Source: Diphasiastrum complanatum
Taxonomy: Eukaryota; Streptophyta; Lycopodiopsida; Lycopodiales; Lycopodiaceae
Direction: 5' to 3'
NCBI GenBank assembly: GCA_029204225.1
Contig: CM055097.1
Coordinates: 14,666,282 to 14,730,281, forward strand
Length of the DNA stretch: 64,000 bases
The notes beneath the pieces are model-generated. The model did no database searches. It was not told where the DNA came from and saw nothing but the letters and a program-made list of their open reading frames with translations. Positions 1,983-58,149 of this stretch are shown piece by piece (the stretch's first letter is position 1; the number at the start of each line of letters is the position of its first letter). The position numbers and the translations under genes are program-made.

Positions 1983-2565
1983 CTGCATGTGTACCAAAAC
2001 AAGAGTCAAAATGTATGCAGACATGACTTCAAAAGCCATAAGTGTACCATAGCACAAATGGCCTATATTCTTGTGTGCAGGAGACACAAATTACTGAAAC
2101 GATATCCCTTTTGCCTACATGAACAAGTAGGTTTACATGCTACTTACCCGAATACACTTGAAGAATACCAAATTTGGGCTACACCCCCAAGGTTCTTTTC
2201 ACATTATTTCTCAGAGCCAAAAAAGATTAAAAAAATAAATAATGTAGCAGACAGGTATTAACACTTGCAATCTAAGTATCGTAGTGTCCACCTCATAGAG
2301 CTGTCTAACTTCTGCATGATATTAGGAATTGTAGAAACTCTTAACATGTTTGTCTCCTCGACACAACTTTGACAGACTACTAATCTTACCAAGGAAGAAA
2401 ACTTTACAGACAATAATTCTCGAAATATTTTTGATTAACTAGAAAACATCTATTGGAAAAAAAGCTACCACGATGCAAATCAAAACTTCCAATATCACTT
2501 AGTAAAACATCACTTTTGACATTGACAGATATTTAAAATCCGTTACTAAATCGGACAACTTTTAG

Positions 2566-3238
2566 GCATAGAACCCACGGTTCTCAGAACCGTGGGTCCT
2601 GGGAACTGCAGGGTGAACCGTACCACGGTTCATGAACCGTGATACGGTTCCTCTATTTGATTAATTAATTAATTAATTGATTACCAAATTCACAGATTTC
2701 ACAGATGATTTCATAGATTTCACAGATGATACAGATTCGACAGATTTCACATGATGTACAGATGATTTGACAGATGATACAGATGATTTTGACAGATGTG
2801 AAATGATCTGAAATCATCACTGATTTGACAGATTTCACAGATTTCACATGATGTACAGATGATTTGACAGATGATACAGATGATTTCACAGATGATACAG
2901 ATTTACAGATGATTTTACAGATGATACAGATGATTTCACAGATGTACAGATGATGTGTGTCATTTGACAGATGATACAGATGATTTCACAGATGATACAG
3001 ATGATTTCACAGATTTCATAGATGAATTCACAGAATTCACAGATTTCACAGATTTTTTTGGCCCTTTTTTTGCATATTTTGGGGTTATTTTTGGGGGGGA
3101 ACCAAAAAAATTAATTAATTAATTAATTAATCAGTACGGTTCACCACGGTTCTGGGCAAAAAAAATTAAGAACCATACAGTTCACTGTACGGTTCTCAGA
3201 ACCGTGGTGAACCGATAACAGTTCATTAATTCTATGCT
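2566..3238. repeat. Fold-back (MITE-like) element with minisatellite core in eEF2 intron
   Basis: The ends are inverted: GCATAGAA on the left and TTCTATGC on the right. Both flanks carry nested palindromes of ACCACGGTTC/GAACCGTGGT (for example CCCACGGTTCT/AGAACCGTGGG at 2573-2596). Inside are (TTAA) runs at about 2662-2680 and 3108-3132. Between these lies a tandem array of CAGATGATTTCA / CAGATGATA-type words (about 2690-3055). No transposase is present. No clear target-site duplication was found. Confidence 0.6.
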
Positions 3239-3572
3239 TTTCATTAGATGATAGGTCCTATACATTCTTGAAAGAAGCATAGAGACAATAACGAATCAAG
3301 TTTTAAGCCATAATATTCCAATCTCAGACAAGGATATCTACTAGAAAACTGACTTTGTTGAACTTGTACACAAGACTATACACTGAAGAAAGTTGTTCTC
3401 GTTTGTCTGCTTGGCATGCCTTTCACAAGGCAAATAGTAGCAACTACTCACTTCACAAAAAAGGCCAATATTTAAATAGAAGATTTTGTCAATTCTAGGA
3501 AACTTTACAAAAACATCACTTTCCCCTCCCATAAGTTGTACAACCCTTTGAAAAATGTCAAAGAACATAATA

Positions 3573-3657
3573 AGTGCTCAGAATCAAAAGTTTCTCTTCA
3601 GACCGTCGAACCGGATCAGAAACTCTAGTCCGAAATATCTTTTATCATCATAGCACT
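3573..3657 (-). ncRNA. Box C/D snoRNA in eEF2 intron (copy 1), predicted 25S rRNA 2'-O-methylation guide
   Basis: Read on the minus strand, the same sense as the host gene. There is a stem AGTGC (3657-3653), C box ATGATGA (3651-3645), 25 nt, D' box CTGA, then D box CTGA (3581-3578) and a closing stem GCACT (3577-3573). The 12 nt TCGGACTAGAGT just before D' pair perfectly with the conserved plant 25S rRNA run ACUCUAGUCCGA. By the fifth-base rule the methylated base would be the U in GAC-U-CUAG. From memory that matches yeast 25S Um2421, guided by snR78. The C' box is degenerate and I found no target for the guide upstream of D. snoRNAs spliced from introns of translation-protein genes are well known. 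Confidence 0.75.
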
Positions 3658-3798
3658 GAAAGGACAAAATTATATACATACTACATATGTGATGTACATC
3701 AAGGAAATACGAATACAACTAGTAGATGATGTTACATGGCAATGCCCTCAGTGTCACATTTGAGATCATTTACCAAGAAAGTTCAGTTGACTATGATG

Positions 3799-3892
3799 AG
3801 TGCTCAGACAGTCAAAATTTCTCTTCGGCATGGTCAAACTGGATCAGAAACTCTAGTCTGAACAATCTTTTGACATCTTACCAGTAACCACT
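3799..3892 (-). ncRNA. Box C/D snoRNA-like copy 2 in eEF2 intron (degenerate C box)
   Basis: Homologous to the unit at 3573-3657. D box CTGA is at 3807-3804, with closing bases GCACT/AGTGG. The D' guide is CAGACTAGAGTTT before CTGA. The 25S match is 9 bp, then one A-C mismatch and a G-C pair. The C box region (around AAGATGTC) has drifted from RUGAUGA, so this copy is probably weak or dead. Confidence 0.45.
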
Positions 3893-4380
3893 GAAAGCTC
3901 AGACTTGTATACACATACAATTTGACATATATCAGGGATACACTAACGGAAAGCTAGTACATGATGTTAAAAGCCCTCTGAATCAAACATACTCACTCAC
4001 CATGAAAGACAAGATTTAGATAGAATATTTTCGGAATGATCTAAAATTCTAAAAACCTCCAGGAATAACATCACTTTAACACCTGGCAAAAAGTTACTTC
4101 CCCTCCAATGTGTCGTTCAAGTGTACAAGTACTTGTTGGAACAAATTATGTATAAAGTCTATAAAAAATTACCAATGTATGACACAGGTTACTACTCACT
4201 ATCAACTTTACAAGCCCCTTCAACCAATTTTTCAAGACCATTCAAGTTCAATCTAATAAAACCACAAACAGTATGTTAATGAGGATGACGAACAAAGGCA
4301 GAGGAGACAAAAATACTTCAGATTGAAAGATCGGGATTCAACAACATGATACATTCAAATATTCCGAGTTGAATATGATG

Positions 4381-4457
4381 AGTGCGTGGACAGTCAAAAG
4401 TTTCTTTTCAGGCGGGTCAACCCGAATCAGAAACTCTAAATCAAAACATCTCAGTGT
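4381..4457 (-). pseudogene. Decayed box C/D snoRNA copy 3 in eEF2 intron
   Basis: It aligns with the other units, but both the C box and the terminal D box are lost (CCAC where CTGA is expected). The guide has changed to TTTAGAGTTT, which breaks most of the rRNA match. It is kept as evidence that the family arose by tandem duplication and is decaying. Confidence 0.45.
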
Positions 4458-4595
4458 GTATCCACATACAAAATAATGTAGATCACAGAAATATTAGTGG
4501 ATGTAGTGCATGACATTACGTAGCGAAACATTCTTAAGCCAAATGCCAGATCATTCCTTGAAAAAGTGTACTGAATGCCCCAAGATGAATATGAT

Positions 4596-4686
4596 GAGTG
4601 CTCAGAGATTCAGAAGTCTCTTGTCAGACAAGGTCAAACCAAATCAGAAACTCTAGTCTGAGATATCTTTTATCATCTGAGCACTC
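4596..4686 (-). ncRNA. Box C/D snoRNA-like copy 4 in eEF2 intron (strong closing stem)
   Basis: The outer stem GAGTGC (4686-4681) pairs with GCACTC (4601-4596), six perfect pairs, next to D box CTGA (4605-4602). The C box position reads CAGATGA, two changes from RUGAUGA. The D' guide CAGACTAGAGTTT precedes CTGA as in copy 2. The stem has been kept while the C box drifted, so function is uncertain. Confidence 0.55.
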
Positions 4687-4799
4687 AAATCAGACTCATA
4701 TACCCATAAAACTGATGAATATCAGGGAAACACTAATAACAAGCCAGTACACAATTCACACAGCAAAGCTCTCTGAGTCAAATGTGAGAACATTCCTCG

Positions 4800-6234
4800 G
4801 ATGCTCAAAGGACATGATTCCCTCTCCCTCACAAAAAGTATCGGCATGCAAGAAGGCCAAATCTTTTTGCTAAGTGGCAGTTGTGGAACCAAAGAGTTGG
4901 TAACCCTTCACATTATTGGACAGAGAAACCCCTCGTATCCATTTGTATGTGTGTGCATTTGTATGAGAGAGAGAGAAGAGAGACAGACAGAAGGGGACCA
5001 GGAAAATCAGCCATGTTTGAAGGAGAGACAACCTCAGTAACTCCAACTCACGCCTGAAAATTGCAGGTTGCAATGCAGGACAAAGGACTATTAAAAGACA
5101 AAAAACTGAGTGTCAATAGAAAGGCAAATCCAAATTTTATGCCTCAAATTGCGAGGCAAATTTGGAAAGTCAGCTTTCATAGATCATGGCTATGTTTAAA
5201 TAAGCTCAAGTCTTTTTACACTTTCAATTCAAGCCTCAAGGGACACAACACCGGTGCTGTGTTCTTAGTAAAATACGCTGCTCTCCAACAATACGTGATA
5301 GAGATTTCCCTAATATCAAGGCAATAAAGTATTGAAAACAGGAGTAAAGGTAAGGGGAACAAGAGATCTCAAACCACAATTTGCTGCATGCTTCAAAACA
5401 GCTCAAAACCGCAAGTCCTGATTCATAAGTAGCAGTTTTCTTAAACTGCGGGTTCATGGTTTCTCGAACGACAGAACTGACAAACAAATTATTTCTTTTA
5501 ACTCTAGATTTATGTATGACACAATTGTTTTTCTTTATATAGATATGTCTGTTGTACTGCTAAGGTTATTACATTCTGGGAAAGTTAAATGAAAGGAGAG
5601 TAAATATGTTCTTTTTCACTGGAAACATCTAAAATACGAGCAAGAAAATAGTAGGGCTGAACAGCACAGCACCATTCTGGTGAGGATCAATCATGTCCTG
5701 CAGTGTAAGAATCCCTTGCTGCTGGGATCCAGAGCTTGAAGCCCATGTTGTCAGGTAGTGTATGAAATTCTTGTAAAAGGTTTTTATCACATAAGAAAAG
5801 TTCCTGTATGTATGTTATGTATACATTCTAAGTAAGCAAACTTGTTTGTAACAAGTTCTAGGACCTTGAAGTGTCAGCCTTCTGTTCCGATCTCTGTCAT
5901 AATTGTGTTGCTCTTTCAATATCAAATATCCTTAAACATTTGGTCGTATGACAGAATTGCAAACAAACTTATATAGCAACTATATATGTTATACAATATG
6001 AGTATTATGAATGATTATGGATAATGTTGTGTAAGTCTAGTGATGTACGTAATTTAAGGACTTCCCAGACTTACTTATTGCACATAATTCAGGGTCGCTT
6101 TAAACTTACTAATCCATTCACCAAAAACTTACATATGACCATCACCGCTATAGAGGATTGATAGGGAAACAATCACTGGGCTGTAAACAGGACAGTGAAT
6201 GGGAAAGAAGTAACCAGTTTCTTAACACCCTCCA
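4800..6234. other. eEF2 intron remainder, exon-like open stretch at 5640-5805
   Basis: Mostly featureless AT-rich intron. On the minus strand an acceptor-like ATACATACAG near 5804 is followed by about 57 open codons ending at a stop near 5635. These include a Ser/Gln-rich part (SSSGSQQQG). The peptide is not recognised. It may be an alternative terminal exon, an old gene fragment, or chance. Confidence 0.25.
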
Positions 6235-6895
6235 AATGTCCATTTTGCACGTCCAACAGACAGACACTCAGATAAAGAACGTCTCATATAAAATTTCTTA
6301 AAGACCTCGGATAATCGGAGCGACTGGCCAATCATCTAGATCCAATTAGTGAAATTTAATCTCGAACAACATAAGTACCTAAGCACAGAGGGAATAGCAG
6401 AAGACTACGCAGTAGGCAGGACGGTGGTTAAGATGAAAAAATGATTGGTGAAGCAATCTAGAAACTTTTGATGGCAAAAAAGGGAGCTCGCTGAGAAAGG
6501 AAGCAGACAAAGAATTCCAGCTACGCACGACATCCAAATATGCATTTGTCATGTCCAATCGACACACTCATTTCATGTCATTCGTTTTCAAACATCTTCG
6601 ATAAATGGAACGATCAACCCACTAGCTAGGACAGATTTTTTGATACAATCTTTCAAAATCTAACATAAGTAAGATATGTCTCATGACAATTTTTTACTGT
6701 GCAACAACACGGTGGGGTTGATTCCCGACGCGAACTTGAGTTAAGCAAAAGCTGGCTTTGATCTAAAATTCTTACTAAAGAGGTACATACTTAATCCTCA
6801 CTACATACGTCAACACTAAATTAAGACTGCCTATGATGTTGACTCTTACCAAGCGGTGCATACTTAATCCTCACTAAGCATGTCAATACTAAATT
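6235..6895. repeat. Diverged local duplications in eEF2 intron
   Basis: A roughly 150-bp stretch at about 6236-6400 recurs in diverged form at about 6538-6690 (both hold cgtcc/tgtcca, cgacACACTCA-like words and ctcgga/cttcgataa). A second short duplication, 'gtRcatacttaatcctcac', occurs at 6783 and 6856, an offset of 73 bp. Confidence 0.5.
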
Positions 6896-6964
6896 AGGCC
6901 AATCCTGTTCTCACACAGAACAAGATCAGGCAAAGAATTTCTATGCAGACTCAAAACTGCGTAC

Positions 6965-7052
6965 CATGGTCGACGTGAGCAATAACGGACATATTCCTGA
7001 TGTTATGCTTCTTGTCCATGATCCTCCGAAGCTCGTCTGACGTGAACTTCAC
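6965..7052 (-). CDS. eEF2: eEF2 exon 2 (residues 2-31)
   Basis: Twenty-nine codons plus one base, from an acceptor TATACAG to the donor G|GTACGC. It encodes [20 protein letters not shown] then [10 protein letters not shown]. The glycine codon is split so that the P loop (HVDHGKST) is completed by exon 3. No disabling change is seen in this exon. Confidence 0.95.
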
Positions 7053-7230: not shown

Positions 7231-7233
7231 CAT
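7231..7233 (-). CDS. eEF2: eEF2 exon 1 coding part (start codon only)
   Basis: The ATG is followed directly by a perfect GTAAGT donor (7230-7225). The next exon begins GTGAAGTTC (V K F), giving the canonical eEF2 N-terminus MVKFT. An intron right after the start codon is, as I recall, a known trait of plant eEF2 genes. The bases to about 7380 upstream would be 5' UTR. Confidence 0.9.
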
Positions 7234-50550: not shown

Positions 50551-50967
50551 TCATCCTCCCCAGTCAGGAATCATTAACCTGCTCCTTCTGTGAATTGCTA
50601 ATTTCACAGCTGGAAGTTTTCCACGGACTTGCTTCCACACCATATTCACTGCATCATCTTTTTTCAGAGGATATTGGTACTCGAAATGGTGTGAAACTTC
50701 TCTCAATCTCCGCCACATCTTCAACCAGAGGTCTTTGTCAAAGTTTTGCAGGTGGCGTAAGAGATGATCAGGCTTGAGAGCATCTGCCACAGAGAAGAAT
50801 AGACAAAACTCCTTGTAGTCGAGTTCATCCTCAAATGGAAGCTCAATGCGATCGCTCACTATGACTGGCACACAGTGGCTCACAATTGCATCGAATAGTC
50901 TGCAAGCAGAGGGTGTATCTCCTGCTGGGTGCAGGCAAAACTTTGATGAGCGCATCCCTTTTGTTAC
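50551..50967 (-). CDS. GT47 exon 4 (residues 342-479) and stop
   Basis: It starts at GACAG|GTAACA ([10 protein letters not shown]) and ends with TGA at 50553-50551. It holds the most conserved exostosin block ([20 protein letters not shown]) and the C-terminal [17 protein letters not shown]. Confidence 0.95.
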
Positions 50968-53900
50968 CTGTCACCATATCGATCAAGGGAAGCATAGCCC
51001 ACTTTAAATGGCAATTCTACGGACTTTTGATTGTCCAAACTTCAAGTAGAGCAGAATAGAAAAATACTACAAATAATAGAGCTGTGCATGAAAGTCTGCT
51101 AACGAGCTGTATTTTCATCAAAAACTATAGAATTTGTAAGCTTTATTGTACTCAAAAGTGACAAGTTCATAGGAGCTTTAACATGCTTGTAATTTCATTT
51201 CAGTTGGCACAAAGTTTCTTTGGTCCCAGGTTCGAGCCTCCCCTTGGAAACCAAGAAGCATTTCAGTTGGCTATCATGAGGGGTTGGCTCAGTTGGTTAG
51301 CTTGACATCCAAAATTTCTTTGGTCTCAGGTTCGAGCCTCCCCTTGGAAACCAAGAAGCATTTCAGTTGGCTAGTTAAGGGTGTTGGCTCAATTGGTTAT
51401 CTTGACATCCAAAGTTTTTTTGGTCTCAAGTTCGAGCCTCTCCTTGGAAACCAAGAAGCATTTCAGTTGGCTTAGCTGGTTAGCTTGGCATCCAAAGTTT
51501 CTTTGGTCCCAAGTTCGAGCCTCCTCTTGGAAACCAAGAAGCATTTCAGAATTGGAATATTTTTAAGAGCTTGTTTATGAGATTATGGAGTGGGTAATTT
51601 AAATAATCATTGGGAGGCAAATCACCTAAAACCATCTAGCAAATCTCACATGAGTGGTTCTAGATTTATTTTAATGTCATTCACTAGATGAGTTTACGTA
51701 ATTTGTCAACCAATGTCCATTAAGATACATAATTGACCTATGCGAAGATGCCACATGGCAACAATAGGAGCAATAACCAACTCAAATATTAACTGAAGTA
51801 GTTTTGAATTGTGTCAAGGTTATTGACAAGCATAAGATCATTGAAATATTCAAGCCCAAAATTGAATGGCCCATGCCATATGGTACGATGGTCAAATTTT
51901 CGAGCTTCAAGCAATTGTGTATATTGGTACGATGGTCATGTTTGTCGGATCCTTATATTGACTATTATTAATGTCTTCTACTTATTTTTAGCATTAATAC
52001 AAAATAAAACATATATGTGACGATTTACTTTCCTATCATCCCATCCTCCATTGTTGCCTCTACTTGGTTGTACTGTCTTCCCCCCCCCCTCACCCGAATT
52101 TTTTTTTTTTTTGTAGATGTGAGTGCACTCAATACTTTTGATGGAACTCCTTCCATTGCTCTCACATAAACATTGCAAAACATGGGTATAAGCAACTGAT
52201 CATGAATATTTATTACCTTCAACATACGTAACTATGAGGTCCTTAAAACTACTACTTTTTAGCCATATGAAATGTCTTTTATTGTTAGCCTTTGTGTTAC
52301 GTATCCACTTTGAGTATGATTTGTTCTAAAATGTTCTCTTTGCATAAATTGAACCTAGGTCTTTTATGATATCATCAATCAATATAACCAATTGAAACGC
52401 TATCCTTGAGGACTTATTTTAACTCTTGAAAACATGAAAGCTAATTATAATTCCATTTGGTGTCAAATCATGGAAAGGAACTATTCTCTACTCTCCCAAC
52501 CTTCTTCATGTATGTGATTTTCCCTCCTTTGCTTTCCCCTTGGAATAACCAATTCTTGTCATTGCTAGGATGTGAGGGTATTCCGCCTTGAAATTGTGAT
52601 TGGCTACATGCTCAAATCGTTTGGGTCATTATAGAGTAGTGTCCTACATTATCTTTCAAAGATAGTTCATTTTTTAGGATGACTTACTTAGTGTGTCCTC
52701 ATTGGTCTATGTAAGTTTTTGGAAAATCTATTACAAAAATTTTTCCCACTCTCTCTAGGTGTTTTGGACTTAAGGATGAATATTTTTTTAGTACATAAGG
52801 GTTTATCTATACTCACGTTGTTTTCTCCTTGCCACCTCATAAAAGTTTAGAGTTTCATTTTAGTTATAATTTTGGTAAGTAGTTTCAAAAGGCTAGGTCC
52901 TTTGGTGCTTAAAATTCAAGAATTGAACATATTTTAGTGTTGGGGGAGCTCTTGTAGACATGGCATTTTTATTTTACATGGAGGATGAACAACGTAGATC
53001 AAGGCTGAGGTGAGGAGCTGATAGCTTTGTTAAGACATATGAATATTAATAAGGTTAGGGGAGAAAGTGATCGGATCTAAATTCCTTGAGTTATGAGATT
53101 AGAAAGTAAGGTGTGTGAGGCATACACTCCTTTTCTCATTTTTTTAAGGGATTGTCTACTTTAGTTGGCTATTAGAGCTAGGCTAAACATGTCTTGCTTT
53201 AAGATATTCAATTGGGCCAAGAAGCAGTCAAGGGTAACACCACTTTCTTTGCATATTCTCTTTGTGTAGAAATTTGAGAGCATTAAGTATATTGACTTCA
53301 TCAAGTTGGGCTTCTAAGATTACTCTTTGCTCAACAATGACTTTCTTTATAGTTTGACAATAGGCCATCATATGATGTCTTGATCCGGGGCTAAATATGG
53401 TCTCATAGTGTAAGGTTATAAGTCTTGGACCATGAGAGGGGCATCATTGTAAAGGAAGTCATGACTTTAGCTCATCGATGCCTCACTATATTGTGTTGGG
53501 CCATGGCTTTTAGAAGGAGGAGGAAGGGAGGTAAATTTGATTCTTGAATTGACTAGAGTCAAGTGGATTCTCTTGCTTTGGACAACGACTTTTATTTTGT
53601 CTAGCATTTTAAGTTGACAGATTAGATATAAATCTTCAATAGCCTTCCATTTTGGACCATTGTTGAAGGTTCTCTAAGTAGTAATGTGATTAAATTTGGA
53701 ATGAAAATAATTTATATAATGTCATTACGTGACTTTTGACGTTTTTCATCATTTTTGCTTGAAAGTCTTTGCCCTTGAAGAGCTTGGAGCACAGGCTACT
53801 ATGAAAGGTAAAGATCTCAAAGACTTTTTTTTACATTATTCTCTCTCTATAATGTTGATTTAACTTCTTTTCAACTTTATTGTCAAGAAGAGGAGCCAAT

Positions 53901-56900
53901 GCATCCAACAAGGTGATGACTTGATATTGGAGATTCAAGAAGGTGTATATTTATGTTACACGCGAGGGAGGGGGGGGGTGCAATTTTATTTATTACAAAC
54001 ATAGATTCTATCTAGTTTGGTTGATCAAAAGTCCAAGCATCCTCTGACATTGTTCTTGGGTGGGCTTTGAAGGACACAAAAAGACCTATGGTAGTCCAAA
54101 AGGTCAATCCATCATGGAGTCTGAAGATCTTTGTACAATATAGTAAAGGTTCTACTAGGGTTGCTCTTAGTTCTCACATACATGTCTAAAATTGCTAGAA
54201 AGAAGCATAGGATAGGAGGTAGTAAGTTCTATTATAACCAAAAGTCTCATCTTACAATGGCTTGTGGCAATCATCTCCCATCTTCTAGCTCAATTTTTTT
54301 GTTTTGAACTCCTAATTTCAATTTATGGTTGCTCATTGCTTGCATTCACTTGATTTCTTCAAGAGCTGCATACAACTTCATATAGATGTTAGGCTATTTT
54401 CAAGATTTGTCTATGGGAGAAATGCAAATACATGTCACTTCTTGATGGTAATGACATCCCCAATCAATGCCCACATTCTCTCTCTCTCTCATATTTTCTT
54501 ATGTGCAAATATATTAAAAGAAGATTGTCACATAGATAATAACCTATGCAATGTGGCATTTGAGTTTGTAGTACATAGGGATCGATGGTATATAGGTTGG
54601 TCTTCCCATACTTAGTATTTTTTTGCCCAATTTTTACCCAATTTTTAGATTGCTTAAATAGTAGAATGGGTAGCAATACTCCTGCGCCCCAAAGTTTTTG
54701 CTTTTGAGAAGCTGATTATAATGCAGATTCTGTTTCATAATGGCATGTGAAATAAGCCAAACTATCCATTACGCAATGGAAGAAACCTAGGGAGATGTCA
54801 TTTTGCCCAATAAGAAATCACATGCTTGGTCCCTAAGGCCTAGCCTATGACTCAAGCAACATAATGTCAATAGATTCTCCATGGATCTTTCTGTAATACA
54901 TAATGCATAGTTGCATTTTTTGCCCATTTTTTAGACTGCTTAAAAAGTAGAATGGGCAACCCACTGTTTTAAACATTGATTATGTTTTTCAGACGCAAAT
55001 TCTACTTCATAATGGTCCTATGAAAAAAACTCATCTTCGAAAATGTTGATTATGTTTTTCAAATGCAAATTCTACTGCATAATGGTCAGGCAACAACTAT
55101 GTATTACGCAATGGAATGAGCCGGGCACATGACATTCTACTTGGTAAAGAATCATAATCTCTCCAGGCCTCGCCAATGACTTTTTACCGAGCAGAATGTC
55201 TTCTGGCCGCTTGCTCGTTCAATAATACATAGGTATAGAGTCGAGTTTAACCTCACCCTAGGATAGAACTCAAAAAAACGCTCGTTCTTGTATAATGTGA
55301 CCATCACTAGGTTTTACCTCTGCCACACCATTAGGTGTAGCCGTGCCAGCTCGAAAATGTACACCGTCAGTCCTTCTCAGGATCCTTGCCAATTTTGCAC
55401 GGACAAATCCATCCTGCAAAAACCAAGAGTGTCCTCAGTACTTATACACATGTATACATATATCACAAACATGATCTGGATTATAAGGGGTCAGCCTAGT
55501 ACAATCCCGTATAATTAAGAATGTATTGCAGCTAAAACTCTTTTCAATACATGTTTGAGACATCTCACAATTTACATGCAATCAATTCAGCATTACATTG
55601 CTTTTATATTTTTCTGTCTGGCTGAAAAATATCTATTTGTGTCTGATGGATCTGATTTGAACTGCTAATGCTAAACATAATTCTGAAAAAAAATTGAGTA
55701 ATTCTTTGCTAATTAGCCAGCAATAAGTTCATTGTTACAGTGCATTGCTGTTCAGATGGGGCTCACATCTTTTCTGAAAATTCTTCCTTGAAAAAACAGC
55801 AGAATTGTTCTCGATCCAAAGGGGTCTTCAGCCTCATCTTCGTGATAAGTTGACACCATATGCGTGTATGGTGCTACAACATCTTTACTAAGCCGTGCCA
55901 CTCTTTTAGAAAAGCGCCAAAAGTCTGCAACGATGAATATTGATGCATTTAGACGATCTTTGAAAAATCTAAATGCATTTGGATGATGAATGACTATAAC
56001 ATGGTCGCGACCTCCAGATCTCTGCCACCATTTTGATGCTGTCAGGAATTCGACAAGCTCCGCCTGCAGACGAATACATCATGTAGAGTCACGAGTGTAA
56101 GACTGTAAGTCCGAATTTCTACGATGAAGGGCCTTAGGCTAGCTGAAAATCGCTGGATGAAAGCTGAGAGAAATTTGCACACTAGATAGTTTCGTCATGA
56201 TATGAGCTTTTTTTTGAGGATGCACTCATAATATCATATTGAGTCTGGCAGTAACATAAAGAACGTTGGAATGTGTGATTGTAGATATGGAATTTATTGC
56301 TGTGCTGCTTAAGCATGTAGACTTTCTATCCTTCCAACAGTGTTCTGATCAAAATCAGCTTACCTTTCATTCACTATAATGTCAATCAAGATCCTTTGTA
56401 TTATATCCATTGTCACAATTAGAAGATGCAATAATAAAATTATCTTGTTTATTCTTTAGCCTTGGGGATTGATGATGTGAAATATTTTTCCAATCAGTTT
56501 GCCAATAAGTGCAGCATAGGCTCTCATTCGTTTCTTGCAGTTTTGTGTAAAGTAAAAGACATAATTGCCGTAAAAGACGTAACTACATTAATTTTCTGAC
56601 CGCAATATAATCCTTTGCTATTGATCCTTGAACGGCGGTGCGAGCGATCTTGATCAAAGAAGTTGTACCGTATAAAGAACGATAATATACTAAACAGATC
56701 AAGAGTGCAACTAGGCATGACAAACAGATTAAGTTGTGTTTTAGAATCCTGGAGAAAGAGATTACCTGCAAATTTTTGTCCTGTTCTGTACTGACTGGAT
56801 CCCTCATTTTGTGACTGTGCATATTAAAACTTACGGAAGAGAAGAAAGGCACAAAAAAGACATCTGCGTTTATCGGATCCTTTACCCTCACAGCTGATCT

Positions 56901-57395
56901 GTTTTCTGCCCCCAACGTTTGATCACCCAAGAGGCTCATCATCATCCAATATTCCACGTTATGCTGCTTGGAAAGCCCAGACTTTGCCCAAATAGGCAAG
57001 TCATTCTCTGGCCAAGGCAAACTTTGATTTGCGTCCTTTGTCCGGAGTAAACCTAGGTTAAATCTTCGAGGAAGATCGTACATGAATACCTTCAACGTTT
57101 TGTCACATTCCCTTTCGGTATTAAACGAAGGAGAAAATTCGGCATCACCTGTTGCTGTAGATTCATCAAACAACCTGTTTGTGGAATTATCTCCTACAGA
57201 ATGTAGGCTCTGACCTGACAATTTATGCGGCGTTGGTACTGCCGCATTGAGCTTCATGAGTTGCCTTCCTATAGTGCTATCATCATCTTGATGCAAGTAG
57301 TAGATGGGGTCTGAGAGAGATCCAGTATGATATGAACTTGTAAGCAGAGTGGAGACGCCTACCATACTTACTATCAGCAACAAAACCTTGAACAT
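50551..57395 (-). CDS. GT47 exostosin-family glycosyltransferase, four exons, 479 residues
   Basis: Likely a Golgi type II membrane glycosyltransferase of cell-wall or proteoglycan synthesis, related to plant ARAD-like/exostosin proteins. Exons are 57395-56766, 56063-55767, 55413-55318 and 50967-50551. All introns are GT-AG and phase 0. Residues 1-25 form a hydrophobic signal anchor ([17 protein letters not shown]). The exostosin domain starts near residue 101 ([12 protein letters not shown]). Later blocks are [35 protein letters not shown], and [20 protein letters not shown] with [20 protein letters not shown]. It ends IPDWGG. Length fits the family. No stop or frameshift is seen. The sugar donor and acceptor cannot be told from sequence alone. 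Confidence 0.92.
51203..51550 (+). repeat. Tandem of four tRNA-like units with A and B boxes in GT47 intron 3
   Basis: B-box-like RGTTCGAGCC starts at 51229, 51329, 51429 and 51512, so spacing is 100, 100 and 83 bp. A-box-like TTGGCTCARTTGGTTA precedes the second and third at 51284 and 51384. Units share TTTGGTCYCARG and CTTGGAAACCAAGAAGCATT (a short hairpin TTGGAAACCAA). The word pair matches the D and T arms of a tRNA (Ile-like). It looks like a tRNA-derived repeat multiplied in tandem, on the strand opposite the host gene. Confidence 0.7.
51551..55317. other. GT47 intron 3 remainder
   Basis: Intron sequence with no coding signal. Poly-C/poly-T tracts lie at 52080-52113 and a G tract near 53972. 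A duplicated 'gattatgtttttcaRaYgcaaattctactKcataatggtc' occurs at about 54977-55017 and 55046-55087, with a related 'TTTTTAGAYTGCTTAAAWAGTAGAATGGG' at 54640 and 54929. Confidence 0.5.
55318..55413 (-). CDS. GT47 exon 3 (residues 310-341)
   Basis: Thirty-two codons ([20 protein letters not shown] then [12 protein letters not shown]) from TTGCAG|GAT to GAG|GTAAAA. It joins the flanking exons in frame. Confidence 0.9.
55767..56063 (-). CDS. GT47 exon 2 (residues 211-309)
   Basis: Ninety-nine codons from CTGCAG|GCGGAG to GAT|GTGAGC. It carries HHPNAF, the VADF(W)R block and the [11 protein letters not shown] region typical of GT47. Confidence 0.93.
56766..57395 (-). CDS. GT47 exon 1 (residues 1-210)
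   Basis: Signal anchor, a variable stem (residues 26-95) and the start of the exostosin domain, including [10 protein letters not shown] and [15 protein letters not shown]. The donor is CAG|GTAATC at 56766/56765. This ATG is the only one that puts a hydrophobic anchor at the N-terminus. Confidence 0.93.
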
Positions 57396-58149
57396 CGTTT
57401 TATTTCTCCTCGTCTACGTTTTTGCCACGCAATCTTCAGTGCTCGTAAAAGTCATCACTAGAACAAGGAAGAGAAGATTGGAAAGGGATAGTACTAGTTT
57501 CTGTACCAAAGGTCCAGGGAAAAATGATAGATACACCCAGTTCCACCCAAGTGCTGCAAAGAGAAGCAGGAAAATGTGAAAATCAGACAAATAAAAATCA
57601 TATAAAATGTAATATGTTCCACGAATGGTTCCATACTTCTGAAATAACTGCTTGCTGGCATTCTGCGAACAATCTGCAGTTGCAGCTAGTTATAGATTTA
57701 GACAGAAGAAATATTCCATTTCATTGGCCTTCAGAGATAATCGTAACATGATGTGCATGGATCCTCAAAAAATTGCAACAGCAGCGCCTTGTTATTACGA
57801 TCTTAAAATCTCACAACATCCTTACATCACTGATTGCATTTTCCACGTAAAGAGTTAGCACCAAAATTCGCAAATATTGACTGCTTGGCAAACTTCGTCC
57901 CTTCAAGAGGAAATGCCTATCTCAATATGTACTACTAAACACCTCAGGATGATTCAATCTTCCAACCTTTGTGCGTTGTGGAACTTATGATGCCAAATGA
58001 CAGCCATTTTTAAATATTCAGGCAAATAGGCCAGTGCTTCTTATAGGGCGCAACGATCGGAGGAGCAATTGCAGCTGGTATAGCCCGAAACTTGTTCATC
58101 ACTAGAAATGTCATCCATTTCATAATTTAACTAGATATAATTTGTACTC

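Follow-up and report, generated by a model that had tools for sequence, protein, structure and literature searches.

Results

An Array of Box C/D snoRNAs in the Second Intron of an eEF2 Gene

The analyzed stretch of DNA (64,000 nt, referred to as the window) begins inside a gene for the translation factor eEF2, which is encoded on the minus strand. Exon 1 consists of the start codon (7231–7233) and is followed by intron 1. Exon 2 (6965–7052) encodes 29 amino acids and ends with the first base of a further codon, and exon 3 (1–1982) is cut by the window start. Between the last two lies intron 2 (1983–6964; 4,982 nt), bounded by GT and AG. When exon 3 was compared with an inverted duplicate of the window described below, five single-base gaps and three mismatches were found. 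Six of these eight differences, three of them indels, fall within the first 103 bases of the window exon. The frame is open in the duplicate, where it runs for 828 codons, including some read-in from the intron, and ends in YEDKL. The indels of the window exon are likely an assembly error near the sequence edge. A telo box is present within 1.5 kb upstream of the start codon, and no site II motif (TGGGCY) was found in the same 1.5 kb.

Intron 2 hosts a tandem array of direct repeats (3563–4794, minus strand) containing four copies of a box C/D snoRNA. The array has the sense orientation relative to its host, a coding eEF2 gene, and the end of copy 1 is separated from the 3′ splice site by approximately 1.6 kb. 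A previous sequence-only reading had placed a box C/D snoRNA family between positions 3567 and 4690 on the sense strand of an eEF2 intron. Class, host, and strand agree with our analysis, and the two positions bracket all four copies.

Copy 1 (3573–3657, minus strand; 85 nt) is a complete box C/D snoRNA by its boxes, stem, Rfam match, and guide pairing. It has the C box ATGATGA (3645–3651), a D′ guide (3622–3632), the D′ box CTGA (3616–3619), a C′-like box (3595–3601), and the D box CTGA (3578–3581). Read from 3657 to 3573, the order is AGTGCT-ATGATGA-...-CGGACTAGAGT-TT-CTGA-...-CTGA-GCACT, in which AGTGC and GCACT form the terminal stem, as had been described. Only copy 1 combines a C box of the form RUGAUGA, a CUGA D box, and a terminal stem, i.e., has fully canonical boxes. 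Three further copies, described earlier as lying on the same strand in various stages of decay, were confirmed. Copies 2 (3799–3885) and 4 (4597–4686) have intact D′ and D boxes, and copy 4 also keeps the terminal stem. Their C boxes, AAGATGT (3873–3879) and CAGATGA (4673–4679), respectively, carry two mismatches each, and these two copies appear weakened. Copy 3 (4378–4471) lacks the C box, has CCAC as its D box and a damaged D′ guide, and retains the D′ box and the 3′ stem strand; judging from these changes, it is a dead pseudogene. For copies 1, 2, and 4, the repeat unit is approximately 210–225 nt long and comprises the snoRNA with about 100 nt of its 5′ flank, and the start-to-start spacings in the array are 228, 583, and 217 nt.

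An interspersed element occupies positions 2577–3236 of the same intron. Its ends carry ATTAATTA runs together with ACGGTTC motifs, and a ACAGATGAT repeat lies within it. The intron of the other eEF2 gene contains pieces related to this element, mostly in the opposite orientation. Elsewhere in the window, reading frames inspected by eye included remnants of several copia-like retrotransposons and a gypsy-like one (11500–44600), as well as pieces resembling an exostosin-type glycosyltransferase gene (50551–57413, minus strand).

The Array Is Related to Plant SnoR37

Alignment to a snoRNA collection had been proposed as a check. The whole window was scanned with 4227 Rfam families at E ≤ 1, and five matches were obtained. 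The four highest bit scores belong to the four copies, all of which matched RF00333 over model positions 1–100. The scores were 44.4, 36.3, 30.1, and 25.9 bits, with E-values of 4.4e-6, 8.7e-4, 0.048, and 0.74, the last being that of copy 3. By E-value, copy 3 ranks behind an unrelated SCARNA7 match elsewhere in the window (0.62). All four scores lie under the RF00333 gathering score of 55, and the window scan at gathering scores gave no matches, so that the family is visible in E-value scans only. Copies 1, 2, and 4 were combined with the relative on contig C23 described below into a model, which recovered copy 3, not among its inputs, at an E-value of 5.7e-7. Weaker Rfam names at the copy sites (snoR38, snoR64, snR56, and others) were lower-scoring cross-matches and were set aside.

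In the RF00333 consensus, D′ is preceded by the guide GGACUAGAG and D by the guide CCCUUGGCUGU. Arabidopsis SnoR37 has been assigned to 25S C2366 and U2422 (PMC8053127), and the guides of the consensus fit both residues. The D′ guide for U2422 is exact in copy 1, has one mismatch in copies 2 and 4, and is damaged in copy 3. Since the scores stay under 55, we call the array SnoR37-related and not a full member of the family. Its guide sequence indicates that the RNA belongs to no new family, the predicted target being that assigned to plant SnoR37. Seven C/D families, snoR37 among them, are conserved across land plants (PMC5122169).

The same D′ target has been listed for Neurospora CD5, snR78, snoR37, and U52 (PMC2780460), as well as for Guillardia GtNM-R6, human SNORD52, and SNOR37 (PMC6461891). 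In a comparative table, with the column identities as we infer them, Um2422 shares a row with Um3925 and Um2421; Cm2366 and Cm3869 likewise stand in one row, where we could read none of the entries as a yeast Cm236x (PMC11542601).

The D′ Guide Pairs with 25S rRNA Sequences of the Same Genome

The Diphasiastrum genome was searched with a 110-nt piece of 25S sequence; of the 39 matches obtained, six loci were read (L040–L045). The 12-nt guide of copy 1, TCGGACTAGAGT, is the exact complement of ACTCTAGTCCGA, which is present in five of the six large-subunit (LSU) loci (L040–L043 and L045; absent from L044), as expected from the exact 25S complementarity claimed before. The target of the family's D guide, ACAGCCAAGGG, is present in four loci (L040–L042 and L044), and three loci (L040–L042) contain both targets. 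The fifth base before D′ in copy 1 is an A that faces the first U of GAC-U-CUAG, the residue singled out by the sequence-only reading. A distance of 56 nt separates the two target residues, C and U, in L041 and L042, the same as between positions 2366 and 2422 in Arabidopsis.

On L042, the D′ guide of copy 1 forms a run of 13 pairs (one of them G–U), which was matched by none of 40 shuffled guides. The guides of copies 2 and 4 form 10 pairs with one A–C mismatch beyond, and these runs were equalled by seven and six of the 40 shuffles, respectively; copy 2 has this mismatch to most of the 25S copies read. The D′ duplex energies, computed with assumed target letters, were −22.3, −16.1, −9.6, and −16.1 kcal/mol for copies 1–4, −20.2 kcal/mol for the C23 relative, and −19.0 kcal/mol for the Rfam consensus. 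In the LSU-like locus L044 (contig C3), ACTCTAGTCTGA stands in place of ACTCTAGTCCGA, and this variant is perfectly complementary to TCAGACTAGAGT, the guide shared by copies 2 and 4.

The pairing scans used L042 (with shuffles) and L041 (without shuffles), neither of which is a clean whole 25S gene. As five other rRNA anchors, with assumed sequences, were absent from the 10 kb around L041 (L046), no clean complete 25S sequence was obtained. Plant 25S searches of viral contigs gave 0 and 2 matches, one of which (L001) is a eukaryotic LSU piece. Searches of a genome contig collection gave 0 and 11 matches; a gathering-score scan of six of the latter identified no LSU sequence. A separate observation is that 23 of the 39 matches represent one recurrent piece of LSU rRNA, 43–45 nt long and with 87–91% identity to the query. 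Sixteen of the 23 are on contig C20, 15 of them between 16.9 and 20.1 Mb, and the piece may belong to a dispersed or satellite repeat.

Thus, copy 1 has more than 10 nt before D′ complementary to rRNA and is predicted to direct methylation at the U equivalent to Arabidopsis U2422. The corresponding yeast residue is Um2421, assigned to snR78 (PMC5199042), which is the equivalence given for this target in the sequence-only reading.

The Second Guide Is Lost in the Array and Kept at Another Locus

The D guide for C2366, which makes up the other half of the family's usual pair, is kept in none of the four copies. This loss was overlooked in the sequence-only reading. In copies 2 and 3, TTTTGACTGT has taken the place of CCCTTGGCTGT. 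Its C-to-T changes still allow G–U pairs, and a G-to-A change sets an A opposite C2366, the very residue to be methylated. In copies 1 and 4, the guide is degraded further. The D-guide energies were −4.7, −5.8, −8.9, and −2.5 kcal/mol for copies 1–4 vs. −21.6 kcal/mol for both the C23 relative and the Rfam consensus. A search for alternative D-guide targets on L042 gave best runs that were equalled by 19, 27, 15, and 34 of 40 shuffles for copies 1–4, respectively.

The genome was searched with RF00333 at E ≤ 10, and seven matches were obtained: copies 1, 2, and 4 in two loci and a site on contig C23. This is a lower bound, as 59 of 160,419 first-look candidates were scored, and copy 3 was unlisted. 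The C23 site (C23:31959040–31959129; L030:1501–1590) holds a SnoR37-like double-guide snoRNA scoring 52.1 bits, under the gathering score. Both its guides are exact; its C box ATGAAGA and D box CCGA are non-canonical. On L042, its D′ guide forms a 13-pair run with more G–U pairs, which was equalled by three of 40 shuffles, and its D guide forms an 11-pair run. A putative H/ACA snoRNA resembling snoR2 (L030:1172–1309; RF01292, 38.6 bits, under the cut-off of 44) lies 191 nt upstream. The telo box AAACCCTA is found approximately 410 nt before the H/ACA match, and site II motifs are present further upstream only. In plants, the promoters of many snoRNA genes are marked by telo boxes that occur in association with site II or TEF motifs (PMC3022908).

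Sites with GACTAGAGTNTCTGA, a 15-base guide-plus-box pattern, were also counted genome-wide. There were 12 matches vs. 8 for the reversed control; six of the 12 were copies 1, 2, and 4 in the two loci, one was the C23 site, and the remaining five showed no C/D context by eye. The pattern CCCTTGGCTGTNYGA gave eight matches vs. four for its control. One of them was the C23 site, and the other seven had no D′ guide or C/D layout by eye, five being in one unrelated repeat context. When a model (R1) was run on 12 loci of the two sets, the C23 site scored 84.7 bits, and L079, L057, and L080 reached just 17.4, 15.1, and 12.2 bits (E-values of 0.067, 0.22, and 0.96). On L079–L081, Rfam gave one match, a sub-threshold snoU6-53.

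These counts bear on whether the likeness to SnoR37 might have arisen by chance. The 15-base pattern is not rare, and RF00333 yields sub-threshold matches at E ≤ 10 in 8 of 14 control genomes as well. However, chance would have to account for four full-length matches on the same strand within 1.1 kb that have the highest bit scores of the window, and for a 13-pair LSU match. We give this explanation practically no weight and, in our view, it is already refuted by the window Rfam scan, the match of the held-out copy 3, and the pairing on L042.

The Copies Look Old, and Their D′ Guide with Its Box Is the Best-Kept Part

The flank divergence between copies is 0.34–0.60 (Jukes–Cantor; 0.34–0.47 among copies 1, 2, and 4), so the duplications look old. 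When copies 1, 2, and 4 are compared, the D′ guide together with the D′ box has 16 of 17 columns conserved, and the ungapped part of the flank has 52 of 96 (Fisher p = 0.001, neighbouring columns being taken as independent). Kept in the same copies are 4/4 columns of the D box, 5/5 of the 3′ stem strand, 5/7 of the D-guide stretch, 4/7 of the C box, and, as aligned, 0/7 of the C′-like box. The snoRNA outside boxes and guides is kept about as well as the flank (24/41). This pattern is consistent with a period in which the U2422 guide was under selection, after which copies 2, 3, and 4 decayed. As copy 1 alone has fully canonical boxes, the duplicating family of the sequence-only reading is better pictured as a tandem duplication that is old and mostly in decay.

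Decay might also have gone to completion, with all four intronic copies being pseudogenes and the C23 snoRNA alone guiding both U2422 and C2366. The latter outscores the copies, keeps both guides, and sits behind the H/ACA match in a common plant polycistron layout, and the D guide is lost in every intronic copy. Set against this are the non-canonical boxes and sub-threshold score of the C23 snoRNA, the canonical boxes and exact D′ guide of copy 1, and the better conservation of the D′ core than of the flank. We consider this alternative unlikely and prefer the reading in which copy 1 is a working guide.

A Second eEF2 Gene and an Inverted Duplicate of the Window

A search of the genome with the eEF2 protein gave 24 matches, including four strong exon 3 matches, two on contig C6 and two on contig C4. 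In the one of the two C4 copies that was read, intron 2 is of similar length (approximately 5.2 kb). It contains no RF00333 match at E ≤ 1 and no TAGAGTTTCTGA motif, and one GACTAGAG was found on the other strand. At E ≤ 1e-3, the stretches that it shares with the window intron are interspersed repeat only. Because the C4 copy read is without the array, the array was either gained by or lost from one eEF2 lineage.

Nearly the whole window aligns in inverted orientation to G000:C6:14048926–14114049, approximately 560 kb away, which carries a second cluster of the snoRNA copies. The alignment comprises nine blocks (>95% identity, >300 nt) of 97.2–99.4% identity. The two sequences are identical between 3566 and 4695. 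Shortly beyond the 3′ end of copy 1, at 3562, additional bases are present in the duplicate; 19 gap bases were counted in 1983–3565, and the 11 displayed ones are at 3562. Inverted pairs 0.2–0.8 Mb apart were also found for the C4 eEF2 gene, a C13 marker, and a C1 marker. These several pairs point to unmerged alleles that scaffolding set side by side and not to real duplication, so the inverted duplicate of the window is probably an unmerged allele.

The position of the array raises the question of whether the intronic copies act in cis, e.g., on eEF2 splicing or mRNA level, and not on rRNA. Such action would suit their sense orientation inside the host, and snoRNAs acting on their own host locus have been reviewed (PMC11028025). 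Nevertheless, the best-kept element of the array is an rRNA guide with its D′ box, and the copy read of the other eEF2 gene does without such an RNA. We regard a cis function as very improbable and retain the reading of copy 1 as an rRNA guide.

Discussion

We think it highly probable that copy 1 is a SnoR37-related intronic guide acting on U2422, that copies 2 and 4 are weakened and copy 3 is dead, and that C2366 is left to the C23 snoRNA. Copy 1 would be transcribed together with the eEF2 pre-mRNA, cut out of the intron, and bound by the usual box C/D proteins 15.5K, Nop56, Nop58, and fibrillarin. Its D′ guide would then pair with 25S rRNA, and fibrillarin would methylate the U equivalent to Arabidopsis U2422. 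Over time, the snoRNA in one eEF2 lineage would have lost its D guide for C2366 and been tandemly duplicated along with its flank, and methylation of C2366 would depend on the C23 locus. Weighing against this reading are the RF00333 scores under the cut-off, the E-value rank of copy 3, the missing D guide, the C-box mismatches of copies 2 and 4 and the shuffles that equal their D′ pairing, the flank-like conservation of the snoRNA outside boxes and guides, and the distance of copy 1 from the 3′ splice site.

The array has the D′ guide, the U2422 target, the box order, and the full-length RF00333 alignment in common with plant SnoR37. With yeast snR78 (Um2421) and Neurospora CD5, it shares the D′ target site, and we liken it to them by target. 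As snR78 has been described with a single functional element (PMC2780460), the one-guide form has a precedent; the partner guide of CD5 differs (26S Am856). Animal SNORD52 (28S U3904/Um3925) likewise shares the target. It has been called homologous to SNOR37 in a study that numbers the Arabidopsis sites U2411 and C2355 (PMC6461891). Vertebrate SNORD37 (U37) is also a box C/D snoRNA in an EEF2 intron. In chicken, it lies in intron 6 and targets 28S A3207 (PMC2653536), which differs from the target of the array. We view the likeness of name and host as a probable coincidence.

An intronic position is nothing unusual for a plant snoRNA; in rice, it applies to 31 of 109 loci (PMC3022908). In the literature that we searched, which covered few subscription papers, we found no report of a snoRNA in a plant eEF2 intron or of this array. 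The function is ordinary and well known. What is new in detail is that the host gene is eEF2, that the guide for C2366 has been lost, and that the C23 snoRNA contrasts with the array.

A more specific proposal, which we put forward tentatively and would not rely on, is that the two loci may have divided the work. The eEF2-intron copies, with the canonical boxes of copy 1, would serve as single guides for U2422, and the C23 snoRNA would keep C2366 under relaxed boxes. The two marks would then be tied to the transcription of a translation factor and of a snoRNA polycistron, respectively. The C23 boxes depart from the canonical ones at the fifth base of the C box (U to A) and the second base of the D box (U to C). 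In the kink-turn, these changes would turn a U–U pair into a possible A–C pair.

With its four copies of differing divergence, the array offers a clean natural example of how snoRNAs arise and decay within one intron, and the comparison is completed by an eEF2 paralogue without the array and a double-guide relative elsewhere in the genome. It could serve to test the move of a guide RNA into the intron of a translation-factor gene and the uncoupling of two rRNA marks made by one RNA.
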